Of a DNA stretch of 64,000 nucleotides, positions 3,666 through 37,222 are shown one piece after another. The translations under genes and the position numbers were made by a program. The notes beneath the pieces are model-generated. The model was not told the DNA's origin. It was given only the letters and a program-made list of their open reading frames with translations, and did not search any database. The first letter of the stretch is position 1, and every line of letters starts with the position of its first letter. This DNA is from Microcoleus sp. AS-A8 (GTDB lineage Bacteria; Cyanobacteriota; Cyanobacteriia; Cyanobacteriales; Coleofasciculaceae), in contig JAMPKV010000013.1 in NCBI GenBank assembly GCA_039962225.1, positions 124,001 to 188,000 of the forward strand, read 5' to 3'.

Positions 3666-5276
3666 GTGACCAATAAAGTTCCAGACCAAGAACCATCTCA
3701 GTTAAATGGCTCTGCGACAGTCGCTGAGTCTGCCCTCGAAGAGCGGCATTTAGACTCCTTCCCTTTACCTATAGCCGAACCTATAGCCGAACCTATAGCC
3801 GAACCTATAGCCGAAAAAGCACCTCGAACCTGGCTATCCGGCGGGCGGGGCATGTTAATCGGCATAGGGATTGGGGTCGTGCTAGCGGTTGGCGGTACAC
3901 GCTTACTGAGTTCTCAACCCACGAAAGCTCCTGCCAAGTCCCCTGAAGCGACCCCCTCTGCTGCACCCGTCTCCGCTCAAAGCGTCACTGTAGCAACGGT
4001 AGAAACCACTCGCGTTCCTCGTATCTTAAAAGCCGACAACGGAAGTGTTGCCGCCTTTGAGATGATTCCGGTGTCGTCCCAAGCGACGGGATTACAGATT
4101 AAGCAAATCCTAGTAGACCGGAATGACTTTGTGAAGGTGGGGCAAGTGATGGCACGGTTAGATGATGCCATTCTCCAGGCACAATTGACGCAAGCCAAAG
4201 CCTCCGTTGCCCAAGCCGAAGCCCGTTTGGCAGAACTGCGGACGGGGACACGAAAAGAGGAAATTGCTCAGGCACAAGCTCGTTTAGACCAAGCCAAAGC
4301 CCGTCTGAGTCAGGCGCAAGCTAGTATTCCTAGACAGATCGAGCAGGCTCAAGCCCAAGTGGAATCAGCGCAAGCGCGGTTAACACTAGCGGAAAATCGT
4401 TACAAGAGCTATCAATCTTTGGTCGATCAAGGGGCTGTTACCCGCGATCGCTTTAATGAGACGTTCAGTGAGTATCGCAGTGCTCAAGCCAATTTATCGG
4501 AAGCCCAACAACGCTTACAACAAGCCCGAAATACAAATAACCCAGAAATTGACCAGTTAGCGGCTTCTGTGAGAGAAGCCGAACAGGAACTTCAGCAACT
4601 GCGTGCAGGTTCCCGTCAAGAGGTGATTACTCAAGCCGAAGCCCAACTAGCTCAAGCGAAGGGACAACAGCAAGCGATCGCGGCACAACTGGGAAATACG
4701 AAGATCGTGGCTCCTGCGAGTGGTCAAGTCGCTGAACGCAATGCCCGTGTGGGCGAGGTCACCTCAGCCTCACAACCCCTGTTCAAGATTATCGACAAGG
4801 GGCGCTTGGAACTGATATTGAAAGTTCCCGAAACTCAACTGCCGCAAATTAGCCTAGGGCAAAGCGTCAAAATCACGTCTAACAAGGATAGCAAGCTCAG
4901 TCTTGAAGGGAAAGTGCGAGAAATTGACCCTGTCGTTGATGAACAGTCTCGTCAGGCAACAGTCAAAGTTGATTTGCCTGCGACGGAATCTTTAAAACCT
5001 GGGATGTTTTTACGGGCAGCAATTACCACCTCCTCGGCATCCGGTCTAACGGCACCCGCCAAAGCAATACTACCCCAAGCTGATAGCAGCATGATCGCCT
5101 ATCGACTACAAGGAGATGGCACGGTTAAGGCACAGCAGGTGCAGGTGGGAGAACCGATGCCCGGTGAGCGAGTGGAAATTAAAAGCGGTTTATCCCCAGG
5201 CGATCGCATCGTAGTCAAGGGTGCCGCTTACCTCAAAGATGGCGACAAGGTCGAGGTTGTACAGAGTCAAAAGTGA
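3666..5276 (+). CDS. RND efflux periplasmic adaptor (HlyD/MFP family)
   Basis: The adaptor links an inner-membrane RND pump to an outer-membrane channel. The 536-residue protein has a cytosolic N-terminal tail containing four PIAE repeats, one membrane anchor (about residues 60-80, Gly/Ile/Val-rich), a lipoyl/barrel half, a long Ala/Gln-rich coiled-coil hairpin (about 175-335), the second lipoyl half (KIVAPASGQV) and a C-terminal beta-barrel domain. The GTG start has a strong GGGGG ribosome-binding site 6-7 bases upstream, and a consensus TATAAT lies about 30 bases before it. It is followed 110 bases downstream by its pump. A periplasmic adaptor fold is certain; the substrate is not predictable. 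Confidence 0.93.
   Translation: MTNKVPDQEPSQLNGSATVAESALEERHLDSFPLPIAEPIAEPIAEPIAEKAPRTWLSGGRGMLIGIGIGVVLAVGGTRLLSSQPTKAPAKSPEATPSAAPVSAQSVTVATVETTRVPRILKADNGSVAAFEMIPVSSQATGLQIKQILVDRNDFVKVGQVMARLDDAILQAQLTQAKASVAQAEARLAELRTGTRKEEIAQAQARLDQAKARLSQAQASIPRQIEQAQAQVESAQARLTLAENRYKSYQSLVDQGAVTRDRFNETFSEYRSAQANLSEAQQRLQQARNTNNPEIDQLAASVREAEQELQQLRAGSRQEVITQAEAQLAQAKGQQQAIAAQLGNTKIVAPASGQVAERNARVGEVTSASQPLFKIIDKGRLELILKVPETQLPQISLGQSVKITSNKDSKLSLEGKVREIDPVVDEQSRQATVKVDLPATESLKPGMFLRAAITTSSASGLTAPAKAILPQADSSMIAYRLQGDGTVKAQQVQVGEPMPGERVEIKSGLSPGDRIVVKGAAYLKDGDKVEVVQSQK
3768..3815 (+). repeat. Four perfect 12-bp tandem repeats in adaptor N-terminus
   Basis: Four identical copies of CCTATAGCCGAA encode (PIAE)4 in the cytosolic tail before the membrane anchor. 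Perfect identity indicates recent slippage; changes in copy number keep the frame. Confidence 0.9.
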
Positions 5277-5386: not shown

Positions 5387-8300
5387 ATGTCTTTCAACCT
5401 CTCTGCCTGGTCAATCAAAAAGCCGGTTCCGACGCTGGTTTTGTTCTTAGTTTTAACGGTAATCGGCTGGATGTCTTTTACCCAGCTAGGGATTGATTCT
5501 AACCCCAACATTGATATCCCAACGGTTTCGGTCACCGTAACTCAGCCAGGTGCTGGCCCGACGGAATTGGAAACTCAGGTGACAAAGAGAGTTGAAGATG
5601 CGATCGCGGGTTTGGGGAATATCGATAATATGATTTCAACCGTTAACGATGGGGTTTCCAGTACCGTCGTTAACTTTGTCTTAGGCACGGATAGCGATCG
5701 CGCCACCAATGACGTGCGAAATGCGATCGCCCAAATCCGCCAAAACCTCCCCCAAGACATTAACGAACCCATCGTCAAGCGTCTAGAATTTGCCGGTGGC
5801 CCGATTATGACCTATGCCGTCACGTCTGAACGGCAGTCTGTCGAACAATTGAGTTACTTGGTTGACCAAACCATCAGCCGTGCCTTACTTGCAGTGCAGG
5901 GAGTCGCCCAAGTGCAACGGGTGGGCGGCGTGACGAGAGAAATTCGCGTCAACCTCGACCCCAGTCGCTTGCAAGCCCTGGGGATTACTGCCACGCAAGT
6001 TAATGACCAAATTCGCGCCTTTAATGTCAATTTACCAGGGGGACGGACTCAATTAGGAGGGAGTGAACAGAGTATCCGCACGCTGGGCAGTGCGCCCAAT
6101 GTGGAGGTGTTGAAAAGCTATCAAATTTTGCTGCCCAATGGGAGTTATGTTGCCCTGTCCAGTTTGGGAGAAGTGGACAATGGCTATGCGGAAGTGCGGC
6201 AGGAGGCACTGTTTAACGGTAAACCCGTGGTGGCTTACCAGGTGTTGCGGAGTACGGGTAGTACCTTGGTAACGGTGGAAGAGGGGGTACGAAAAGCCGT
6301 AGAGGAACTGAAAAAAACCCTTCCTCCAGATGTTAAGCAAGAACTAATCTTTACACGAGCGGACTACATCCGGGAATCCTATCAAAGCACGATTGATGAC
6401 CTGATCATGGCGTCCGTGCTGGCTGTGGTGGTGATTCTCCTATTTTTACGCAACTGGCGAGCCACCTTGATTACGGCGGTGGCGTTGCCGTTATCGATCC
6501 TTCCGACCTTTGCGGTGCAGAAGATGCTGGGTTATACCCTCAATAGCATGACCTTGCTGGCATTGGCACTGGCGATCGGGAATTTGGTGGATGACGCCGT
6601 TGTGGAAATTGAGAACATGGAACGCCACATGGATATGGGCAAAAAGCCCTTGCAAGCGGCGTTGGATTCTTCGGCGGAAGTCGGTTTAGCGGTGTTAGCG
6701 AGTGCAGCAACGATTATTGCTGTGTTTATGCCCGTTGCGTTTATGGGTGGCGTTCCGGGTCAGTTTTTCCAACCGTTTGGGGTGACGGTTGCCGTTTCTA
6801 CGATCTTCTCGACTTTGGTGGCGCGTACCGTCACCCCGATGATGGGGGCTTTTTTAATGAAGGAAAAGAAAGCAAAGCCAAAAAAGAACTCTCGCTACTA
6901 CGGTTTTCCTCATACCTTCCGCGTGCGCTTTCAACCGTATCGTAGTTTGTTGACATGGGCGTTGCGGCATCGACTGACGACTGTTGCCATAGCCCTTGCT
7001 TTCTTCATCGGCAGTTTGATGCTAGTCCCCTTGATTCCCAAGGGATTAATCGATAGCGGCGATTTTGGTATTTCCACAGTTTCTGTTGAACTACCTCCCG
7101 GTTCGACTCTGAACGACGCAAAATCCGTTGTTCAAGAGGTAACACAGCTGATTCAGCCCAGCCCAGCCATTAATAGTGTGCTGGCGACAGTCGGTTCCGG
7201 TAGTGGCAGTGATGGCAGTGGTGTGAATAAAGCCACTGTGTTTGTTCAGCTTAAGCCCAAGGAAGAGCGGGATATCTCCCAGTTAAAGTTTGAGCAGGGG
7301 TTGCGTCCACAATTTGCCAAAATTCCAGGAGCGAGAATTAGTTTCCAGAGTCAAGGTGCAGTGGGAGGGAGTAAGGATTTATCCATCCTCCTTAAGAGTG
7401 AAAATCCGGAAGCATTAACGACGGCTGCCAATGCATTGGAAAAGCAGATGAGAACGGTGCCGGGATTGGTGGAAGTAAGTTCTAGTGCCAGTTTGGTGAA
7501 GCCAGAGATTCTAGTTGTTCCCGATCCGGCGCGTGCCGCTGATTTGGGAGTGACGGTACAGGCGATCGCACGCACAGCCTCTCTTGCCACGATTGGAGAC
7601 AATGAAGCGAATTTAGCGAAGTTTAATCTCCCCGATCGGCAAATTCCCATTCGCGTGCAAATCGATCCAAAGGCGCGGGAAGATATTGACACGCTCAAGA
7701 ATCTCAAGGTGCCTGGTCAAAATAACACCCTAGTTCCCATCACGGCGGTGGCAGATATCCGTTTGGGCAGTGGGCCGGCACAAATTGACCGCTATGACCG
7801 ATCACGTCAGGTTTCGGTGGAAGCCAACTTGCAAGGCACTTCTCTGGGCGATGGTGTCGCGGCGGTGAAAAAGCTACCTGCGATGAATCCGCTGCCGCCA
7901 GGAGTGGTGGAGCAATCTGCTGGTGATGCCAAGATTATGGGTGATATTTTCGCTCGTTTTGGCGCAGCCGTGGGGCTAGCCCTGATGTGTATCTATGCCA
8001 TCCTGGTTTTGCTGTACAACAATTTTCTCCACCCAGTGACGATTATGGCAGCGTTGCCCCTATCTTTAGGTGGGGCACTGATTGGCTTGCTGATTGCTCA
8101 AAAGGCGTTAGGGCTATATGCGTTGATTGGGATTGTTTTATTGATGGGGATTGTGACAAAAAACTCAATTCTGCTGGTGGATTACACGTTAATTAACCAG
8201 GAGGAGGGCAAGTCGCAGTATCAGGCGGTGCTTGATGCTGGGTTGTCTCGTCTGCGACCGATTTTGATGACTTCCCTCGCTACAATTGCGGGAACAGCCC

Positions 8301-8542
8301 CCCTCGCGCTGGGCATTGGTGCGGGCGCTGAGGTTCGTAGTTCGATGGGAATTGCGGTGATGGGTGGCTTTACAACCTCCACGCTGCTAACGCTGGTGGT
8401 GGTGCCGGTGCTGTTTACTTATGTGGATAATTTGCAGCATGGGATTGTCAAGCTATTGAGTGGCGGGAGCAAGCGTCGCCAGGTAGCTGTGGCGGGGGCG
8501 AGTGGTGAGGATAGTAATGGAATTGTGACTCGTAACGACTAG
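5387..8542 (+). CDS. RND (AcrB/MdtB-type) efflux pump, inner-membrane subunit
   Basis: At 1051 residues it has the usual length of a hydrophobe/amphiphile efflux RND transporter, a proton antiporter of the inner membrane. The N-terminal FNLSAWSIKKPVPTLVLFL helix, two large periplasmic loops and two sets of about six membrane segments are visible. The paired proton-relay aspartates are in GNLVDDAVVEIEN (around residue 400), and the conserved GIVLLMGIVTKNSILLVDY motif lies in the C-terminal half. It forms an operon with the HlyD-type adaptor 110 bases upstream; no outer-membrane TolC gene is nearby. The ribosome-binding site is weak. Multidrug or toxic-compound export is likely; the specific substrate is unknown. 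Confidence 0.96.
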   Translation: MSFNLSAWSIKKPVPTLVLFLVLTVIGWMSFTQLGIDSNPNIDIPTVSVTVTQPGAGPTELETQVTKRVEDAIAGLGNIDNMISTVNDGVSSTVVNFVLGTDSDRATNDVRNAIAQIRQNLPQDINEPIVKRLEFAGGPIMTYAVTSERQSVEQLSYLVDQTISRALLAVQGVAQVQRVGGVTREIRVNLDPSRLQALGITATQVNDQIRAFNVNLPGGRTQLGGSEQSIRTLGSAPNVEVLKSYQILLPNGSYVALSSLGEVDNGYAEVRQEALFNGKPVVAYQVLRSTGSTLVTVEEGVRKAVEELKKTLPPDVKQELIFTRADYIRESYQSTIDDLIMASVLAVVVILLFLRNWRATLITAVALPLSILPTFAVQKMLGYTLNSMTLLALALAIGNLVDDAVVEIENMERHMDMGKKPLQAALDSSAEVGLAVLASAATIIAVFMPVAFMGGVPGQFFQPFGVTVAVSTIFSTLVARTVTPMMGAFLMKEKKAKPKKNSRYYGFPHTFRVRFQPYRSLLTWALRHRLTTVAIALAFFIGSLMLVPLIPKGLIDSGDFGISTVSVELPPGSTLNDAKSVVQEVTQLIQPSPAINSVLATVGSGSGSDGSGVNKATVFVQLKPKEERDISQLKFEQGLRPQFAKIPGARISFQSQGAVGGSKDLSILLKSENPEALTTAANALEKQMRTVPGLVEVSSSASLVKPEILVVPDPARAADLGVTVQAIARTASLATIGDNEANLAKFNLPDRQIPIRVQIDPKAREDIDTLKNLKVPGQNNTLVPITAVADIRLGSGPAQIDRYDRSRQVSVEANLQGTSLGDGVAAVKKLPAMNPLPPGVVEQSAGDAKIMGDIFARFGAAVGLALMCIYAILVLLYNNFLHPVTIMAALPLSLGGALIGLLIAQKALGLYALIGIVLLMGIVTKNSILLVDYTLINQEEGKSQYQAVLDAGLSRLRPILMTSLATIAGTAPLALGIGAGAEVRSSMGIAVMGGFTTSTLLTLVVVPVLFTYVDNLQHGIVKLLSGGSKRRQVAVAGASGEDSNGIVTRND

Positions 8543-8632
8543 TGGATATGGCAGGATTTGCATTTTTCCTGCGATCGATCGATGACTAGCTGACCAGGAC
8601 TTACCCATTTTCTGGCTTAATACACTATCTTC

Positions 8633-8660
8633 GTAGGGGCGACGCAGGCGTCGCCCCTAC
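8633..8660. repeat. Perfect GTAGGGGC palindrome, 13-bp arms
   Basis: GTAGGGGCGACGC and its exact complement are separated by two bases. The sequence belongs to the GTAGGGGC...GCCCCTAC interspersed repeat type frequent in cyanobacterial spacers. It lies between the RND pump and xisH; without a T run it is not a clear terminator. A related copy is at 9551-9577, on the other side of xisHI. Confidence 0.85.
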
Positions 8661-8727
8661 AGGTAGCGCATCAGGGGACCCAACTCGCCATTTGAGTTAA
8701 GATTGGACTAGTTTAATAGCTACCGTA

Positions 8728-9147
8728 ATGGCTGCTAAAGATATTTTTCATGAGGCTGTTAGGAAAGGTCTTGAAAAAGAGGATTGGCTAATTACTGATG
8801 ACCCGTTGAAGCTTCAGGTGGGTGGGGTTGAGATGTATGTTGATTTAGGAGCAGAAAAGATTATTGCGGCTGAGAAAGATGGGGAAAAAATAGCCGTTGA
8901 AATTAAAAGTTTTATTGGGCCGTCCAACATTTCTGAATTTCATACAGCTATTGGGCAGTTTATCAATTATCGTGTGGCTTTAGAAGAACAATATCCCGCT
9001 CGCACTTTATATTTAGCTGTTCCTCTAGGAACTTATCAAACCTTTTTTTCTCTTCAGTTTATTCAAACTGTAATTCAACGCTTTGAAGTTAAGGTTATTG
9101 TTTACGATCCAGCCAATGAGGTGATTTGGCAATGGCAAATAAATTAG
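8728..9147 (+). CDS. xisH: XisH-family protein (PD-(D/E)XK nuclease fold)
   Basis: XisH was described in Nostoc as a factor needed, with XisI, for excision of the fdxN element by the recombinase XisF. This 139-residue protein matches the family end to end: MAAKDIFHEAVRKGLEKEDW at the start, and the fold's putative active-site residues in MYVDLGAEK and VEIKSF (Asp...Glu-x-Lys). This points to an endonuclease-like core. It overlaps xisI by 16 bases, so the pair is translationally coupled. No XisF-like recombinase or fdxN-type element is in the window, so the pair probably has a more general role than the original name implies. Confidence 0.92.
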   Translation: MAAKDIFHEAVRKGLEKEDWLITDDPLKLQVGGVEMYVDLGAEKIIAAEKDGEKIAVEIKSFIGPSNISEFHTAIGQFINYRVALEEQYPARTLYLAVPLGTYQTFFSLQFIQTVIQRFEVKVIVYDPANEVIWQWQIN

Positions 9148-9470
9148 AGACTTACAGAGCTTATGTTCAGCAAGCGTTAAAAGACTATGCGAGTCTGGGT
9201 TCACCGGATGATGATGTTGAGACTCAGCTAATTTTTGATACTGAGGGCGATCATTACCAGTTAGTTTACGCGGGGTGGAAGAATCGACGCCGGAGGTATG
9301 GGTGTGTTTTGCACCTAGATATAAAAGATGGGAAAATCTGGATACAGCATGATGGAACAGAGATTGGGATAGCCAATGAGTTAGTTAAGTTGGGTATTCC
9401 GAAAGAGGATATTGTTTTAGCGTTTCACGAACCTTTTGTTAGACCCTATACAGGGTTTGCAGTCGGTTAA
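9132..9470 (+). CDS. xisI: XisI-family protein, partner of XisH
   Basis: XisI-family proteins are about 110 residues and nearly always directly follow xisH. This 112-residue protein starts at the ATG inside the end of xisH; an in-frame TTG at 9126 is possible but less likely. Family features seen are LETYRAYVQQALKDYA, DTEGDHYQLVYAGW, HLDIKDGKIWIQHDGTE and the closing EPFVRPYTGFAVG. No catalytic motif is known for the family. The fixed pairing and overlap suggest that XisI binds XisH, possibly as regulator or specificity subunit; this is inference. The downstream spacer carries a second GTAGGGGC-type repeat. Confidence 0.92.
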   Translation: MANKLETYRAYVQQALKDYASLGSPDDDVETQLIFDTEGDHYQLVYAGWKNRRRRYGCVLHLDIKDGKIWIQHDGTEIGIANELVKLGIPKEDIVLAFHEPFVRPYTGFAVG

Positions 9471-9550
9471 ATTTGTGAGGGTTGTAGAGCGTTGGTTCAT
9501 TAATAGTAAGGGCAATACTTTTCGCTCTTCGATTGCCCCTCAATGGTTTT

Positions 9551-9577
9551 GGGGCAGGCACAAGGCACTGCCCCTAC
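9551..9577. repeat. Degenerate GTAGGGGC-type palindrome downstream of xisI
   Basis: GGGGCAG pairs with CTGCCCC across a 10-base loop and is followed by TAC, giving the same GCCCCTAC end as the repeat at 8633-8660. Another GCCCC just upstream (about 9536) can pair with the same GGGGC, so the hairpins are mutually exclusive. Confidence 0.65.
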
Positions 9578-10097: not shown

Positions 10098-10343
10098 CTA
10101 CGACTGACTCTCATCGTTAAACGAATCATCCAGATACAGCCGAATAAACTCCTCTGCTGCCGCAGGGTCAATCTTCTGAAGTCCCCTCCTAATTTCAAGG
10201 ATTGCATCACCGGATGGGTCTCTATTTTCATTGACCCAACGGTTAATACTGGAACGCCCAGTACCCATCGCCACTGCCAACTTATTTTGGCTAATGCCGT
10301 AGGCATCCAAAACCCGCTTTAGCACTGTACCCGCTTTTCCCAT
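10098..10343 (-). CDS. XRE-family helix-turn-helix regulator
   Basis: The 81-residue protein is essentially one Cro/CI-type HTH: LDAYGISQNKLAVAMGTGRSSINRWVNENRDPSGDAILEIRRGLQ (residues about 13-57 in outline), then an acidic C-terminal helix. GISQNKLAVAMG and SSINRWVNE are the two DNA-recognition helices. The ATG at 10343 has an AGAGG only one base upstream, so a GTG six codons in is an alternative start. It faces a divergent pair of small genes across a 20-bp-arm inverted repeat (10379-10434), the obvious candidate operator. Likely an autoregulatory repressor; whether it serves as an antitoxin-like or developmental regulator cannot be told. Confidence 0.88.
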   Translation of the reverse strand: MGKAGTVLKRVLDAYGISQNKLAVAMGTGRSSINRWVNENRDPSGDAILEIRRGLQKIDPAAAEEFIRLYLDDSFNDESQS

Positions 10344-15503: not shown

Positions 15504-15545
15504 TTTCAAACCTTCAACCTTTTAACCTTTAACCTTCAACCTTTT
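15504..15545. repeat. TTCAACC/TTTAACC short repeat tract
   Basis: Degenerate heptamers (CCTTCAA, CCTTTTAA, CCTTTAA) lie directly after the KH gene stop on its downstream side. Same type as the tract at 5303-5340. Confidence 0.65.
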
Positions 15546-15547
15546 GA

Positions 15548-15958
15548 TTAAGAGCGAGATCTAGGAGCGGGTTTAGACGTTGGTGGGCGGTGAGATGTAG
15601 CTCTTTTTGCAGCCGGTTTACTACTTGAGGAACTCTCTCGCCGGGAACCTTCATTCGGGTCTTCGTAAATATCCAGATGGACAAATTGACCAGCCGCCTG
15701 AGCGGCTGATTGAATGACCGTCCGAATCGCTTGAATGTTGCGTCCTCCCCGACCAAACACGCGTCCCTTCTCTGACCCGTCGAACGCCAACCGAATCCAT
15801 ACCCGCTCATTGGCATTGGATTTCTCGCAGTCTACCTTTAGCGAAGTCGGTGACTCTAAAAACGGCTCGAACAAAAATCGCACAAGACCGATATAGTCCG
15901 GGCTAGCATTTTGAGAGGAGGCGGAGGGTGTTTCAGGCGTGGACTTGTTCGAGAACAT
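15548..15958 (-). CDS. khpA: KH-domain RNA-binding protein (KhpA-like)
   Basis: KhpA is a small single-KH RNA-binding protein. In this 136-residue version the KH core spans about residues 20-100, with the RNA-binding loop [12 protein letters not shown] (GxxG) and the preceding [17 protein letters not shown]. The C-terminal 35 residues are a Ser/Arg/Pro/Lys-rich disordered tail, common in cyanobacterial versions. The ATG at 15958 lies inside the end of rpsP, a 26-base overlap in another frame, so translation is probably coupled. The context (rpsP, ffh, phoH) fits a translation-associated role. Confidence 0.93.
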
Positions 15959-16181
15959 TGGCTTTCCTCAGAATATCACGCACTGTATCAGTGGGCTGAG
16001 CACCATTTTGGAGCCATTGGACAATCTCTGGAACTTTGAGCCGTGTTTCATCTGTTCTGGGATTGTAGAAGCCCAATTCTTCTAGAGGGCGTCCATCGCG
16101 ACGTGCATTACTTTGAATTGCGACAATTCGGTAGCTGACCTCACGCTTTTTGCCGTATCGTTTTAATCTCAGTTTGACCAT
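15933..16181 (-). CDS. rpsP: 30S ribosomal protein S16
   Basis: The 82-residue product is full length for bS16, which binds 16S rRNA early in 30S assembly. It starts [20 protein letters not shown] and has the conserved [18 protein letters not shown]. The C-terminus ends VLEQVHA. It is 112 bases downstream of ffh and overlaps the KH gene. Confidence 0.98.
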
Positions 16182-19337: not shown

Positions 19338-21698
19338 ATGGCAAGGCAATCCCTCTCAGCCTCTGAACAAGGAATTAAAAAAGCTAAACAAGCATTCAGG
19401 CGGACTGAATTGACTCAGGCACTGCTCGCTGATGAAATCGGTCTCAAGACTCGCTCATCAATTTGGAAATTTTTCAAGGGACAGTCAATTGAGCTTTTTA
19501 TCTTTAAGGCCATCTGCTCCCGGCTTGAACTGGACTGGGAAGAGATTGCTGCACCTCAGATAGTTAATCAAGAAGACACAATCACTATCGATATTGACCC
19601 CCTTGTGCAATATCTGCGCGAGAAGGTACGCCCTAGCATTCAACAGCGCTGTGGCACCATACGGGTACTTGATATGACCCAGCCCATGGGTTTAATGGAT
19701 ATCTATACTAATGTTAATCTTTTGCAGCAACTAACTGGGGATAGACGGCTGAAAATTACTCAACTGTTAAAAGATTTCGACCCAGAAGTACACAGCTTTG
19801 ACCGGATTGGACTGAGTAGAATTACCGAAAAACGCATCTTAGGGGTAGAAGCTGTGAAGCAATACCCTAAGCTGATGGTATTAGGAAAACCTGGTTCCGG
19901 AAAGACGACGTTTTTGAAGTATCTGGCGAGCCGGTGCAGCTCAGGAGATTTACTAGGGAATTTTGTCCCCATTTTTATTGCCATTAGGGATTTATCTGAG
20001 TCAAATAATCAACCAAATTGCCTTGAATATATAACTCAATTTTTCTCTGTGCATAGCATTCAACCCCATCAAATTTCTGAAATCCTTAAACAAGGAAGGG
20101 CATTAATTTTATTTGATGGATTGGATGAAGTTAGAGAAATCGTTGCCAATCGCATCATTAAGGAGATTCGGGATTTTTCGGACCAGTATCATAGGAATCA
20201 GTTTGTCATCACCTGCCGAATTTCAGCCCATGAATATATGTTGGAAAACTTCACAGAATTGGAAGTAGCCGACTTTAATTATAAGCAGATTCAATCATTT
20301 ACTACGAAATGGTTTCAGACCAAAGAGTCAGATTTGGATAGGGCTGATCGATTTATCGAACAGATGCAATTAAATCCACCGATTCGGGAACTAGCCACAA
20401 ATCCTTTGCTGCTGACGCTATTACTATTAGAGTTTGAAGATTCGGGTGACTTTCCCACTGATCGGGCAGAATTATACAGACAAGGCATTGCTACCTTGTT
20501 AAAAAAATGGGATGCCAAACGTGGGGTTATGCGTGACCAAGTCTACCAAAATCTATCGCTGTCGCGCAAGAAAGATTTACTAAGTCACATTGCTCTGGCT
20601 ACATTTGAGCGCAAGGATTTTTTCTTTAAAAAGAAAGATTTTGAACGGTATATTGCTGAGTTTATCCGCCATCTACCCCATGCTCAAACTGACCTAGAAT
20701 CATTACAACTAGATAGCGAGGTTGTACTGAAATCCATTGAAGTGCAGCATGGGTTATTGGTAGAGCGAGCGAGGGATATTTATTCCTTTTCCCATCGCAC
20801 ATTTCAAGAGTATTTTACAGCAAGAAAGATTGTAAAAAGTTCCGATCCGCAAGCGTTAGAGAAGGCTTTGAACGGTTTAGTGAGCCACATCACTGAGACA
20901 AGCTGGCGAGCAATTTTTGTGCTAACGGTGGGAATGTTGCAGTCAGCGGATTACCTGTTGCAGTTGATGAAACTGCGGATTGATCAGCTTTTAGCCACGG
21001 ACGAAAAGCTGCAACAATTTCTGATCTGGGTCAGTAAGAAATCTCTTGGGGTCGAGGTGACCCATAAAACGGTGGCTGTGCGTGCATTTTACTTTAATCT
21101 CGCTCGCGATCGCCATCCTCAGCACGATCCGAAGCGTTACCGGGACTCTGAGTTGATACGCGCCCTTGACTATGACCTGTTTATTCTCCTGCGGTTGGGG
21201 AATATTAGGGCACGGGATGTCGGTCTAGATGATATCCTGGCTCTTGCGTGCGATCGCCTATGGCGCTGCGCTTCGCACAATCGAGCCATTGAACTGGATC
21301 TAACGTATTATCCTTATGCCTTTAAGGGGGCATTTTTCCTGGCTTGTGAGCGTGCCCCTATCCTAGATCCGAATCTAGGGCAAGCGCTGCAAGAACTTAA
21401 GCAGCAACTCCCTGATTTAGATAGTAACGAGCGGAAGTTTAGGCAATGGTGGGAAGTTGAAGGTCAAGCTTGGGCTAAACGGTTAAGAGATATATTAATT
21501 AAACATCGAAGTCTCGCTCATGATTGGCAGTTCAGCGAGGAGCAAAAGAAATTGTTGAAAGCTTATTACGATGCCAATCAGTTATTGGTGGATTGTCTTA
21601 ATAGTGATTGTTACGTCAGTCGTGAGGTACGACAGCATATTGAGGATACCCTATTGTTACCTATGGCTGAAATTGAGAATAGGAAGCACAGTTCGTAA
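19338..21698 (+). CDS. HTH-NACHT NTPase (candidate anti-phage STAND protein)
   Basis: A 786-residue STAND ATPase. Residues about 20-75 form an XRE-like HTH (LTQALLADEIGLKTRSSIWKFF in outline). The NACHT module has Walker A GKPGSGKTTFLKYL (about 183-196), Walker B ALILFDGLDEVRE (about 254-266), the FVITCRISAHEY sensor strand, and the winged-helix part with NPLLLTLLLLEF. After SFSHRTFQEYFTARKIV, the C-terminal 280 residues are helical and contain no LRR, WD40 or TPR repeats, like the NCH2/short C-terminal domains of cyanobacterial NACHT proteins. Bacterial NACHT proteins can block phage; no effector domain (nuclease, TIR, TM) is visible here, so mechanism and target are unknown. No partner gene is adjacent, and two direct repeats lie in the promoter. 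Confidence 0.92.
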   Translation: MARQSLSASEQGIKKAKQAFRRTELTQALLADEIGLKTRSSIWKFFKGQSIELFIFKAICSRLELDWEEIAAPQIVNQEDTITIDIDPLVQYLREKVRPSIQQRCGTIRVLDMTQPMGLMDIYTNVNLLQQLTGDRRLKITQLLKDFDPEVHSFDRIGLSRITEKRILGVEAVKQYPKLMVLGKPGSGKTTFLKYLASRCSSGDLLGNFVPIFIAIRDLSESNNQPNCLEYITQFFSVHSIQPHQISEILKQGRALILFDGLDEVREIVANRIIKEIRDFSDQYHRNQFVITCRISAHEYMLENFTELEVADFNYKQIQSFTTKWFQTKESDLDRADRFIEQMQLNPPIRELATNPLLLTLLLLEFEDSGDFPTDRAELYRQGIATLLKKWDAKRGVMRDQVYQNLSLSRKKDLLSHIALATFERKDFFFKKKDFERYIAEFIRHLPHAQTDLESLQLDSEVVLKSIEVQHGLLVERARDIYSFSHRTFQEYFTARKIVKSSDPQALEKALNGLVSHITETSWRAIFVLTVGMLQSADYLLQLMKLRIDQLLATDEKLQQFLIWVSKKSLGVEVTHKTVAVRAFYFNLARDRHPQHDPKRYRDSELIRALDYDLFILLRLGNIRARDVGLDDILALACDRLWRCASHNRAIELDLTYYPYAFKGAFFLACERAPILDPNLGQALQELKQQLPDLDSNERKFRQWWEVEGQAWAKRLRDILIKHRSLAHDWQFSEEQKKLLKAYYDANQLLVDCLNSDCYVSREVRQHIEDTLLLPMAEIENRKHSS

Positions 21699-36022: not shown

Positions 36023-37222
36023 TTAATCTGCCTTCCGCAACAATGCCCCTGGTTGAATAGCACCCTCCACTGTCGCTACTCCCACTAAACCCTCACGCGA
36101 TCGCAAAGTTACCTTCCCCTTATCGGTGATCGCATTAAACACTGTACCCGGTGCGATCGCACCCAACTCTACCCCACCGAACCACAACTTCGCTTCATTC
36201 CCCTTCACCTCAGTAACCACAGTATCTGCTGCCGGATTGGGGGTATTGATGAAATACATGGGTTGCTTTTCATACCCACTTCCCACCTTCGCTTCATAAC
36301 GGGGAGTTTGGTCAAAGTCTTTAGGTATCTTAGGAACCACGTAGGTGATCGCACTTTCTGGTGTACCTGTTTGCTGCCAAAGATACTGCGTCAATTTGTA
36401 GGTAAAAGCGCCTGCATAGAAACCATTAAAACGTGCATCTGCTGCCGTTTGATTGGGGTTTGTTGCTGCCAAGACAACGCCTTTCGCAACTCCCGCTCGA
36501 TACCGCCTGATATACTCTTCACGAGAAAGACTCAGACGTGACAACCACTTGTCTTGATAGGCTTTTTCTTCACGAGAAATCTGTACCTTTTCCCCACCTT
36601 CTCGCGCACGGACTTTAAATTTTCTAGTAGCAGCACCTGAATAGCAACTATCCAGAACAGCCGTAAAATTCTCACTCTTAACAGCCGACATCAACAGGAA
36701 TAAAGTATGTCCCATAATGTCTTGTACAGTACCACCTTGGGCAGGATATTCATCGGGTAGGGAACTATCAATCGGAACAAAGGTACCATTGACTCCACTC
36801 TTATCCCGACTCGAACCCACGAAGATAGGATCGGGATCGAGAACGAGAGAACCATGCCCAGAGTAGTGAAATACGACTACATCCCCAGGCTTAGCTTGCT
36901 GAATTAAATGCCCTTCAAATGCGTCTAAAATTCCAGAACGAGTAGCTTTTTCATCAATCAGAGTATAAATATCTTTAGGATTAAACCCAAAACGGTGAAT
37001 CAGCAGATTGCGCTGCAACTCTACATCATTCAAACATCCATCCAAGGGAGAAGATGAATACTGATTGATGCCAACGAGTAAAGCCAGTTTGCGAGGAGTA
37101 CTTTGTGCTAAAACCTTTCCGTAGCGATTGCCCTGTCGTTGAATGTTAAGCTGATTTAATCCTAAGCTTGCCAGAGTAGACCCAGCAAATTGAAAAAACT
37201 GACGACGAGAAATAGGGTACAT
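36023..37222 (-). CDS. Tat-exported caspase-family (C14) peptidase
   Basis: A 399-residue orthocaspase/metacaspase-like protein. The N-terminus MYPISRRQFFQFAGSTLASLGL is a Tat signal (SRRQFF), so the enzyme should be exported folded to the periplasm or lumen. The p20 domain starts RKLALLVGINQY; the catalytic dyad is His in FHYSGHGS (about 121) and Cys in LDSCYSGAA (about 192), with intact flanking residues. The last 80 residues form a separate beta domain. Such proteases cut after basic residues and are linked to stress or cell-death responses in cyanobacteria, though physiological targets are poorly known. Monocistronic. Confidence 0.93.
   Translation of the reverse strand: MYPISRRQFFQFAGSTLASLGLNQLNIQRQGNRYGKVLAQSTPRKLALLVGINQYSSSPLDGCLNDVELQRNLLIHRFGFNPKDIYTLIDEKATRSGILDAFEGHLIQQAKPGDVVVFHYSGHGSLVLDPDPIFVGSSRDKSGVNGTFVPIDSSLPDEYPAQGGTVQDIMGHTLFLLMSAVKSENFTAVLDSCYSGAATRKFKVRAREGGEKVQISREEKAYQDKWLSRLSLSREEYIRRYRAGVAKGVVLAATNPNQTAADARFNGFYAGAFTYKLTQYLWQQTGTPESAITYVVPKIPKDFDQTPRYEAKVGSGYEKQPMYFINTPNPAADTVVTEVKGNEAKLWFGGVELGAIAPGTVFNAITDKGKVTLRSREGLVGVATVEGAIQPGALLRKAD

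Follow-up and report, generated by a model that had tools for sequence, protein, structure and literature searches.

The xisHI pair of Microcoleus sp. AS-A8: a probable nuclease and guardian beside a degraded MITE

An overlapping xisH/xisI pair was found in the window (the whole stretch of 64,000 nucleotides of Microcoleus sp. AS-A8 DNA that was analysed), and we consider it probable that XisH is a nuclease that is kept only together with XisI, so that the two together would act in the manner of type II toxin-antitoxin systems or of nucleases with an immunity protein. Three observations carry this interpretation: the nuclease motif and fold of XisH, an asymmetry in the pairing of the two genes across genomes, and selection on one xisI gene that lies beside a broken xisH. 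The sequence-only reading of this locus had proposed a nuclease with a dedicated partner, possibly self-protecting, and this idea gains support from the pairing counts, in which an intact XisH lacked XisI in 1 of 150 cases over both sets of genomes (95 in the first set, counted among the matches listed, and 55 in the second), and lone XisI was frequent.

Results

The xisH and xisI genes and their products

The xisH gene (positions 8728 to 9147, plus strand) encodes a protein of 139 aa that matched the family profile PF08814 with 197.8 bits (E=9.8e-59) against a cut-off of 25 bits in a profile search, and phmmer linked it to the solved structures 2inb and 2okf. The predicted model of XisH (pLDDT 90.3) was superimposed on the solved XisH structure 2okf_A with a Z score of 23.8 and an rmsd of 1.0 over 128 aligned residues. 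Putative PD-(D/E)XK active-site residues had been noticed from the letters alone, and it was found that D39, E58 and K60 are all intact in the window copy, the key residues of which are H8, D39, E58, K60, Q77 and Y81. In a comparison of 57 distinct full-length XisH sequences, D39, E58, K60 and Q77 were invariant (57/57), whereas H8 was present in 56/57 and Y81 in 55/57. We take this His / D / ExK / QxxxY set to be reminiscent of RecB- and Cas4-type nucleases.

Outside the XisH family, the top structural match of the model was AF1548, the function of which is unknown (Z 10.3, rmsd 2.9, 114 aligned), and other matches were EndoMS (Z 9.0, rmsd 2.7, 104 aligned), a CdiA-CT toxin chain (Z 8.6, rmsd 3.3, 110 aligned), Card1 (Z 8.1) and FokI (Z 6.2). 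The predicted model's matches to AF1548, EndoMS and CdiA-CT support the fold of XisH, not its function. The D...ExK site lying within a predicted PD-(D/E)XK fold places XisH in the PD-(D/E)XK superfamily, as judged from the sequence and the model, and a passage of PMC1189080 names XisH among the previously identified members of this superfamily.

The xisI gene (9132 to 9470, plus strand) overlaps xisH by 16 bp, has an alternative TTG start at 9126, and encodes a protein of 112 aa that is the proposed guardian or antitoxin-like partner. XisI matched PF08869 with 160.4 bits (E=2.2e-47; cut-off 25 bits), and with both profile matches far above cut-off, the overlapping xisH/xisI pair described in the sequence-only reading is borne out. 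The relatives of XisI among solved structures are 2nlv, 3d7q, 2nwv and 2nvm, and the XisI model aligned to 2nlv_A over 112 residues with a Z score of 18.7 and an rmsd of 2.1. Nothing clear was found outside this family, the next row of the structure comparison having a Z score of 6.0 and an rmsd of 5.5, and RnlA-RnlB gave a Z score of 3.5, which is at noise level. In scans of Pfam, NCBIfam and PADLOC, XisI matched none of the known antitoxin families.

Two other identities of the pair were tried and rejected. As phage genes, neither XisH nor XisI had a match in 50,697 phage records, and a pattern scan of viral_contigs gave no XisI and one XisH locus. As listed defence genes, neither protein had a match in PADLOC.

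Pairing and decay of xisH and xisI

The frequency with which each gene occurs without the other was evaluated in two sets of genomes. XisH was counted as intact if its profile match started at residue 8 or before and ended at residue 128 or later with no stop, and XisI if its match started at residue 8 or before and ended at residue 105 or later (first set) or 96 or later (second set), also with no stop; a "broken" xisH was one with an internal stop or a partial match. Partners were looked for within 1.2 kb in the first set and within 400 bp in the second, and because of the larger distance allowed in the first set, one xisI that is second in a tandem (G011:C399:20020) was counted with a broken xisH although this xisH lies beside the other xisI of the tandem.

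The first set comprised 18 genomes, and the listed matches reach E values of about 1e-38 for XisI and about 1e-8 for XisH; lone xisI genes were therefore counted among the matches listed, at E better than about 1e-38. It was found that 79 of the 146 listed intact xisI genes were accompanied by an intact xisH upstream, 32 by a broken xisH within 1.2 kb, and 35 by none listed. Three of these 35 were at contig ends (L214, L225 and L239) and were dropped, and at least four more keep short XisH remnants, seen by profile in L207, L215 and L221 and by eye in L211. Conversely, 79 of the 95 intact XisH were paired with a listed intact XisI and one (C35) with a divergent XisI (residues 1-99 of 110), and when the sequence around the other 15 was fetched, 14 had an XisI below the listing threshold and one (L194) had none, which gives 94 of 95 intact xisH genes with an adjoining xisI overall, among the matches listed. 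After the addition of the 14 and removal of the three, 64 of 157 xisI genes were without an intact xisH, in contrast to 1 of 95 for lone xisH (Fisher p = 5e-15, with copies treated as independent). The one lone XisH, in genome G011, has R at position 8 in place of His8 and Y at position 25 in place of D25, both of which are near-invariant residues.

For the second set, 59 genomes of the phylum were searched; G000, G020 and G023 were excluded as already counted, and 13 others had matches. In these complete listings, all 55 intact xisH genes had an intact xisI, whereas 30 of 85 intact xisI genes were without an intact xisH (11 with broken remnants and 19 with none found; Fisher p = 2.9e-8, copies again treated as independent). 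In genome_contigs, XisH gave 531 confirmed stretches, of which the best 80 were analysed; a full xisI gene was present in 80/80 of these, and the single viral-contig XisH locus carries a full xisI as well.

The counts are not independent because copies and genomes share ancestry, and the direction of the asymmetry is the robust part of this result, the p-values less so. Many of the genomes are fragmented drafts, and some "broken" xisH genes may be sequence errors; however, such errors should also break xisI beside an intact xisH, and no such case was seen. As the first gene of the pair, xisH could be struck more often by 5′ truncations, and the 19 of 30 second-set lone xisI genes that have no trace of xisH may never have had one. 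With the single exception of L194, the pattern is that of toxin-antitoxin pairs, in which the toxin is not seen without the antitoxin and the antitoxin may stand alone.

The plasmids NZ_AP014640, NZ_AP014644, NZ_CP092421 and AP018205 of Leptolyngbya boryana have xisH in two pieces, annotated as two proteins, and an xisI in one piece adjoins the two-piece xisH.

Selection was evaluated at another locus of the Microcoleus sp. AS-A8 genome (C3), where xisH is broken both here, with profile residues 89-133 remaining, and in the counterpart in the same-genus genome G001, with residues 64-133 and a stop. The XisI proteins of the two are 100% identical, and the genes differ by 10 synonymous and 0 replacement changes, which has a chance of about 1e-7 under neutrality. 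The conservation of this xisI beside a broken xisH indicates that this XisI has a function that is maintained in the absence of an XisH of its own.

These results bear on an alternative explanation in which XisI would have a function of its own, as a regulator or binding protein independent of XisH, and the loss of XisH, a partner it can do without, would be neutral decay. The many stand-alone intact xisI genes, a good part of them without a trace of xisH, would fit this explanation, as would the strong purifying selection on the xisI gene of the C3 locus. However, neutral loss of XisH leaves the rarity of lone XisH (in the 55 and, among the matches listed, the 95 cases above) unexplained, unless xisI itself is indispensable, and we regard this explanation as distinctly unlikely.

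Palindromes and the setting of the pair

The sequence-only reading had described the pair as bracketed by two matching palindromes. The perfect 28-base palindrome on the left is present as described at 8633 to 8660, with two 13-nt arms and 2 nt between them. The family to which it belongs is above chance in the 7.75 Mb genome: the gapped GTAGGGGC...GCCCCTAC pattern, searched for as (GTAGGGGCN{0,24}GCCCCTAC, was found at 22 places compared to 0 for the reversed control, whereas single GTAGGGGC arms were near control frequency, at 301 (140+161) versus 262 (134+128). There are four full-length copies of an element with this core, which are 102-103 bp long and have 13-bp terminal inverted repeats (TIRs) CAGGACTTACGCA / TGCGTAAGTCCTG. 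Target duplications of 4-5 bp were seen by eye at some copies and not at others, and TIR sites with at most one mismatch numbered 70 compared to 5 in the control, some of them bounding elements with other cores. The family of the left repeat thus has the TIRs, target duplication and many copies of a MITE.

In the window, copy matches, a TIR search and alignment with the full-length copies delimit a degraded element at 8595 to 8671: the left TIR, with one mismatch, is at 8595 to 8607, the resemblance to other copies continues to about 8671, and the right TIR is unrecognisable. Therefore, the palindrome at 8633 to 8660 is internal to a dispersed MITE as its central hairpin, and what was taken for a left "bracket" is the core of one such element in a degraded state. 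As to the degenerate relative placed about 80 bases beyond xisI, a motif is indeed present at 9547 to 9577, beginning 77 bases past the gene, but as a palindrome it is weak and imperfect: it has a single GTAGGGGC arm (9570, minus strand), a perfect stem of about 7 bp by eye and no TIR seen in its flanks, and an inverted-repeat search did not report it. The notion of matching brackets is thus replaced by a MITE core on the left and a weak relative on the right. Of 88 elements, built from 99 arms (100 of the total of 301 were listed), 10 have another within 1 kb, so that it is not unusual for a second arm to lie at a distance of about 900 bp, and proximity alone says little.

The pair is one of several dispersed copies: this genome has 7 xisH and 9 xisI matches, fragments among them, at nine xisH/xisI loci that include the window locus. 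The exact GTAGGGGC arm nearest to any of the eight others is 3,756 bases off, and five of the eight have no exact arm in the stretch examined, which for C46 has just 568 bases leftward. No exact arm was found in the 20 kb around the G001 copy, which is 96% identical by blastn over a block at 8717 to 9475 (plus strand) of the window, and the edges of this homology differ from the repeats at 8633 to 8660 and 9547 to 9577. At the loci examined, therefore, xisHI and the GTAGGGGC palindrome are not linked.

Flanks in common with any of the eight G001 loci compared (among the matches listed) were found at two of the nine loci, C3 and the window locus, the latter on its right side only, which indicates that xisHI copies turn over. 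One site, C24, was checked for an empty state: G001 retains both flanks, which are 88-89% identical, together with two fragments whose coordinates place them in xisH and xisI, and is thus a scar rather than a clean empty site.

An explanation in which the flanking palindromes move xisHI as a mobile or excisable cassette could draw on the two related motifs that flank this copy and on the turnover just described, but it is opposed by the position of the palindrome inside a MITE, by the absence of exact arms within 3.7 kb of the eight other loci (with the short leftward reach at C46) or at the G001 copy, by the mismatch between homology edges and repeats, and by the scar at the C24 site. We consider this explanation highly improbable. 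The comparison that had been suggested for it, namely whether xisHI comes and goes at the repeat edges in relatives, went largely against it, as G001 has the pair without the arms.

The left neighbour of the pair is an AcrB-type RND transporter gene (5387 to 8542, plus strand, PF00873) and the right neighbour encodes an HTH protein (10098 to 10343, minus strand, PF01381), at which a stretch syntenic with G001 starts, the right-hand genes being syntenic from 10089 onward. In the 20 kb G001 stretch there was no match to the sequence directly outside 8717 to 9475 on either side, including about 600 bp between xisI and the HTH gene. The left neighbour of the G001 pair is sufS and not the RND transporter, and the sufS gene of the present genome is on a different contig without xisHI. 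The difference on the left together with the synteny on the right places a rearrangement breakpoint between 8548 and 8717, an interval that contains the MITE.

Several further observations were made around xisHI copies. The identity of the RND gene (window 6925-8547) to its G001 counterpart drops part-way from 84% to 68%, which could reflect recombination inside the gene. Directly after xisI in G001 (L071:641-1441) there are an HNH-type gene like PtuB (PADLOC E=1.3e-14) and another gene, followed at about 1519-1619 by a piece of 101 bp that shares 84% identity with the end of xisI (window 9389-9488), as if a cassette lay between two xisI tails. Two xisHI pairs occur together in convergent orientation in L190 (G007:C198), where a partial match at 4635-4856 adds a third xisI, and in tandem at G001:C1:3060535-3062084. 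The window also encodes a NACHT-domain protein (19338-21698) and a caspase-domain protein (36023-37222), kinds of protein often tied to prokaryotic immunity or cell death. The lower synonymous divergence of xisHI relative to seven neighbours (22/162 versus 203/877 synonymous sites, p = 0.007) was considered as a sign of recent exchange, but this was dropped, as even lower values were found for three genes to the right of these (15529-16181).

Discussion

In the mechanism that we propose, XisH would cut DNA, as its fold and motif suggest, and its production in the absence of XisI would probably do harm or at the least not be tolerated, whereas XisI, made from an overlapping or abutting frame, would most likely bind or restrain XisH. 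XisH would often be inactivated by mutation or truncation, with XisI retained. Candidates for the benefit of the pair are plasmid or genome retention, phage defence and controlled recombination, and the fdxN excision role could be a specialised use of xisHI. We attribute the GTAGGGGC palindrome to a mini-transposon family of its own, one member of which inserted near this copy. The decay asymmetry yields a sharp and testable prediction, which is that XisH is harmful without XisI.

In the literature found, the pair is known solely for its assistance in a single developmental excision. A passage of PMC4874684 states that XisH and XisI are required for excision of the fdxN element in Nostoc 7120, which is a role in recombination, and a passage of PMC4853749, citing Hwang et al., terms the pair a likely endonuclease and directionality factor. 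Both statements favour an explanation in which an XisH endonuclease and an XisI directionality factor serve XisF-like serine recombinases, with orphan xisI genes serving other recombinases. We think this explanation unlikely. The absence of XisF nearby, asserted in the sequence-only reading, agrees with a profile search (E up to 1e-5) in which none of the 39 window ORFs with at least 200 aa showed a recombinase domain, and PMC4853749 also mentions that Beggiatoa and a few others have xisHI but not xisF. Furthermore, xisH matches number up to 25 per genome (18 genomes, fragments included, among the matches listed), and the decay asymmetry is not predicted if both proteins act only together in excision.

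A treatment of XisHI as a toxin-antitoxin pair was not found in the literature searched, which was that within reach outside subscription papers and toxin-antitoxin databases. It is also absent from the passages of PMC6390638, PMC2674450, PMC4679880 and PMC5647855, the XisH/XisI passages of PMC4853749 make no link between XisI and antitoxins, and fdxN, excision and XisI do not appear in the full text of Makarova et al. 2009 (PMC2701414). PMC11297309 names XisH and XisI among the domains of predicted contractile-injection-system toxins. The role of xisHI is described as unclear or still to be disclosed in passages of the literature that include one of PMC4874684.

Beyond the nuclease and guardian reading of the pair, we tentatively put forward, as a possibility that falls somewhat short of an even chance, that XisHI is an unrecognised DNA-cutting toxin-antitoxin (or suicide-defence) family, widespread in cyanobacteria and found in a few other bacteria, that its use for excision in Nostoc 7120 was co-opted later, and that the many stand-alone XisI proteins are retained immunity genes against related XisH.

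The repeats and the pair may each be compared to known systems. For the left repeat, the GTAG-type REPs and the MITEs of cyanobacteria come nearest. GTAG repeats are reported in cyanobacteria in a passage of PMC3733652 and MITEs in Anabaena sp. 90 in one of PMC3542288; the left palindrome is likewise dispersed and starts with GTAG, and here it lies inside copies with 13-bp TIRs. The XisH and XisI of the Nostoc (Anabaena) 7120 fdxN element belong to the same Pfam families as those of the window, with 2okf, 2inb, 2nlv and 2nvm as solved relatives. In contrast to that element, the window pair has no recombinase among the ORFs searched and is one of several copies in its genome, and the role proposed for it, that of nuclease and guardian, goes beyond help with excision. 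The pair may also be compared to type II toxin-antitoxin and nuclease-immunity systems: XisI differs in matching no known antitoxin family in the scans above, but xisHI is likewise a multicopy arrangement of two overlapping or abutting genes, found in some cases on plasmids, in which XisI is likewise kept when the nuclease is lost.
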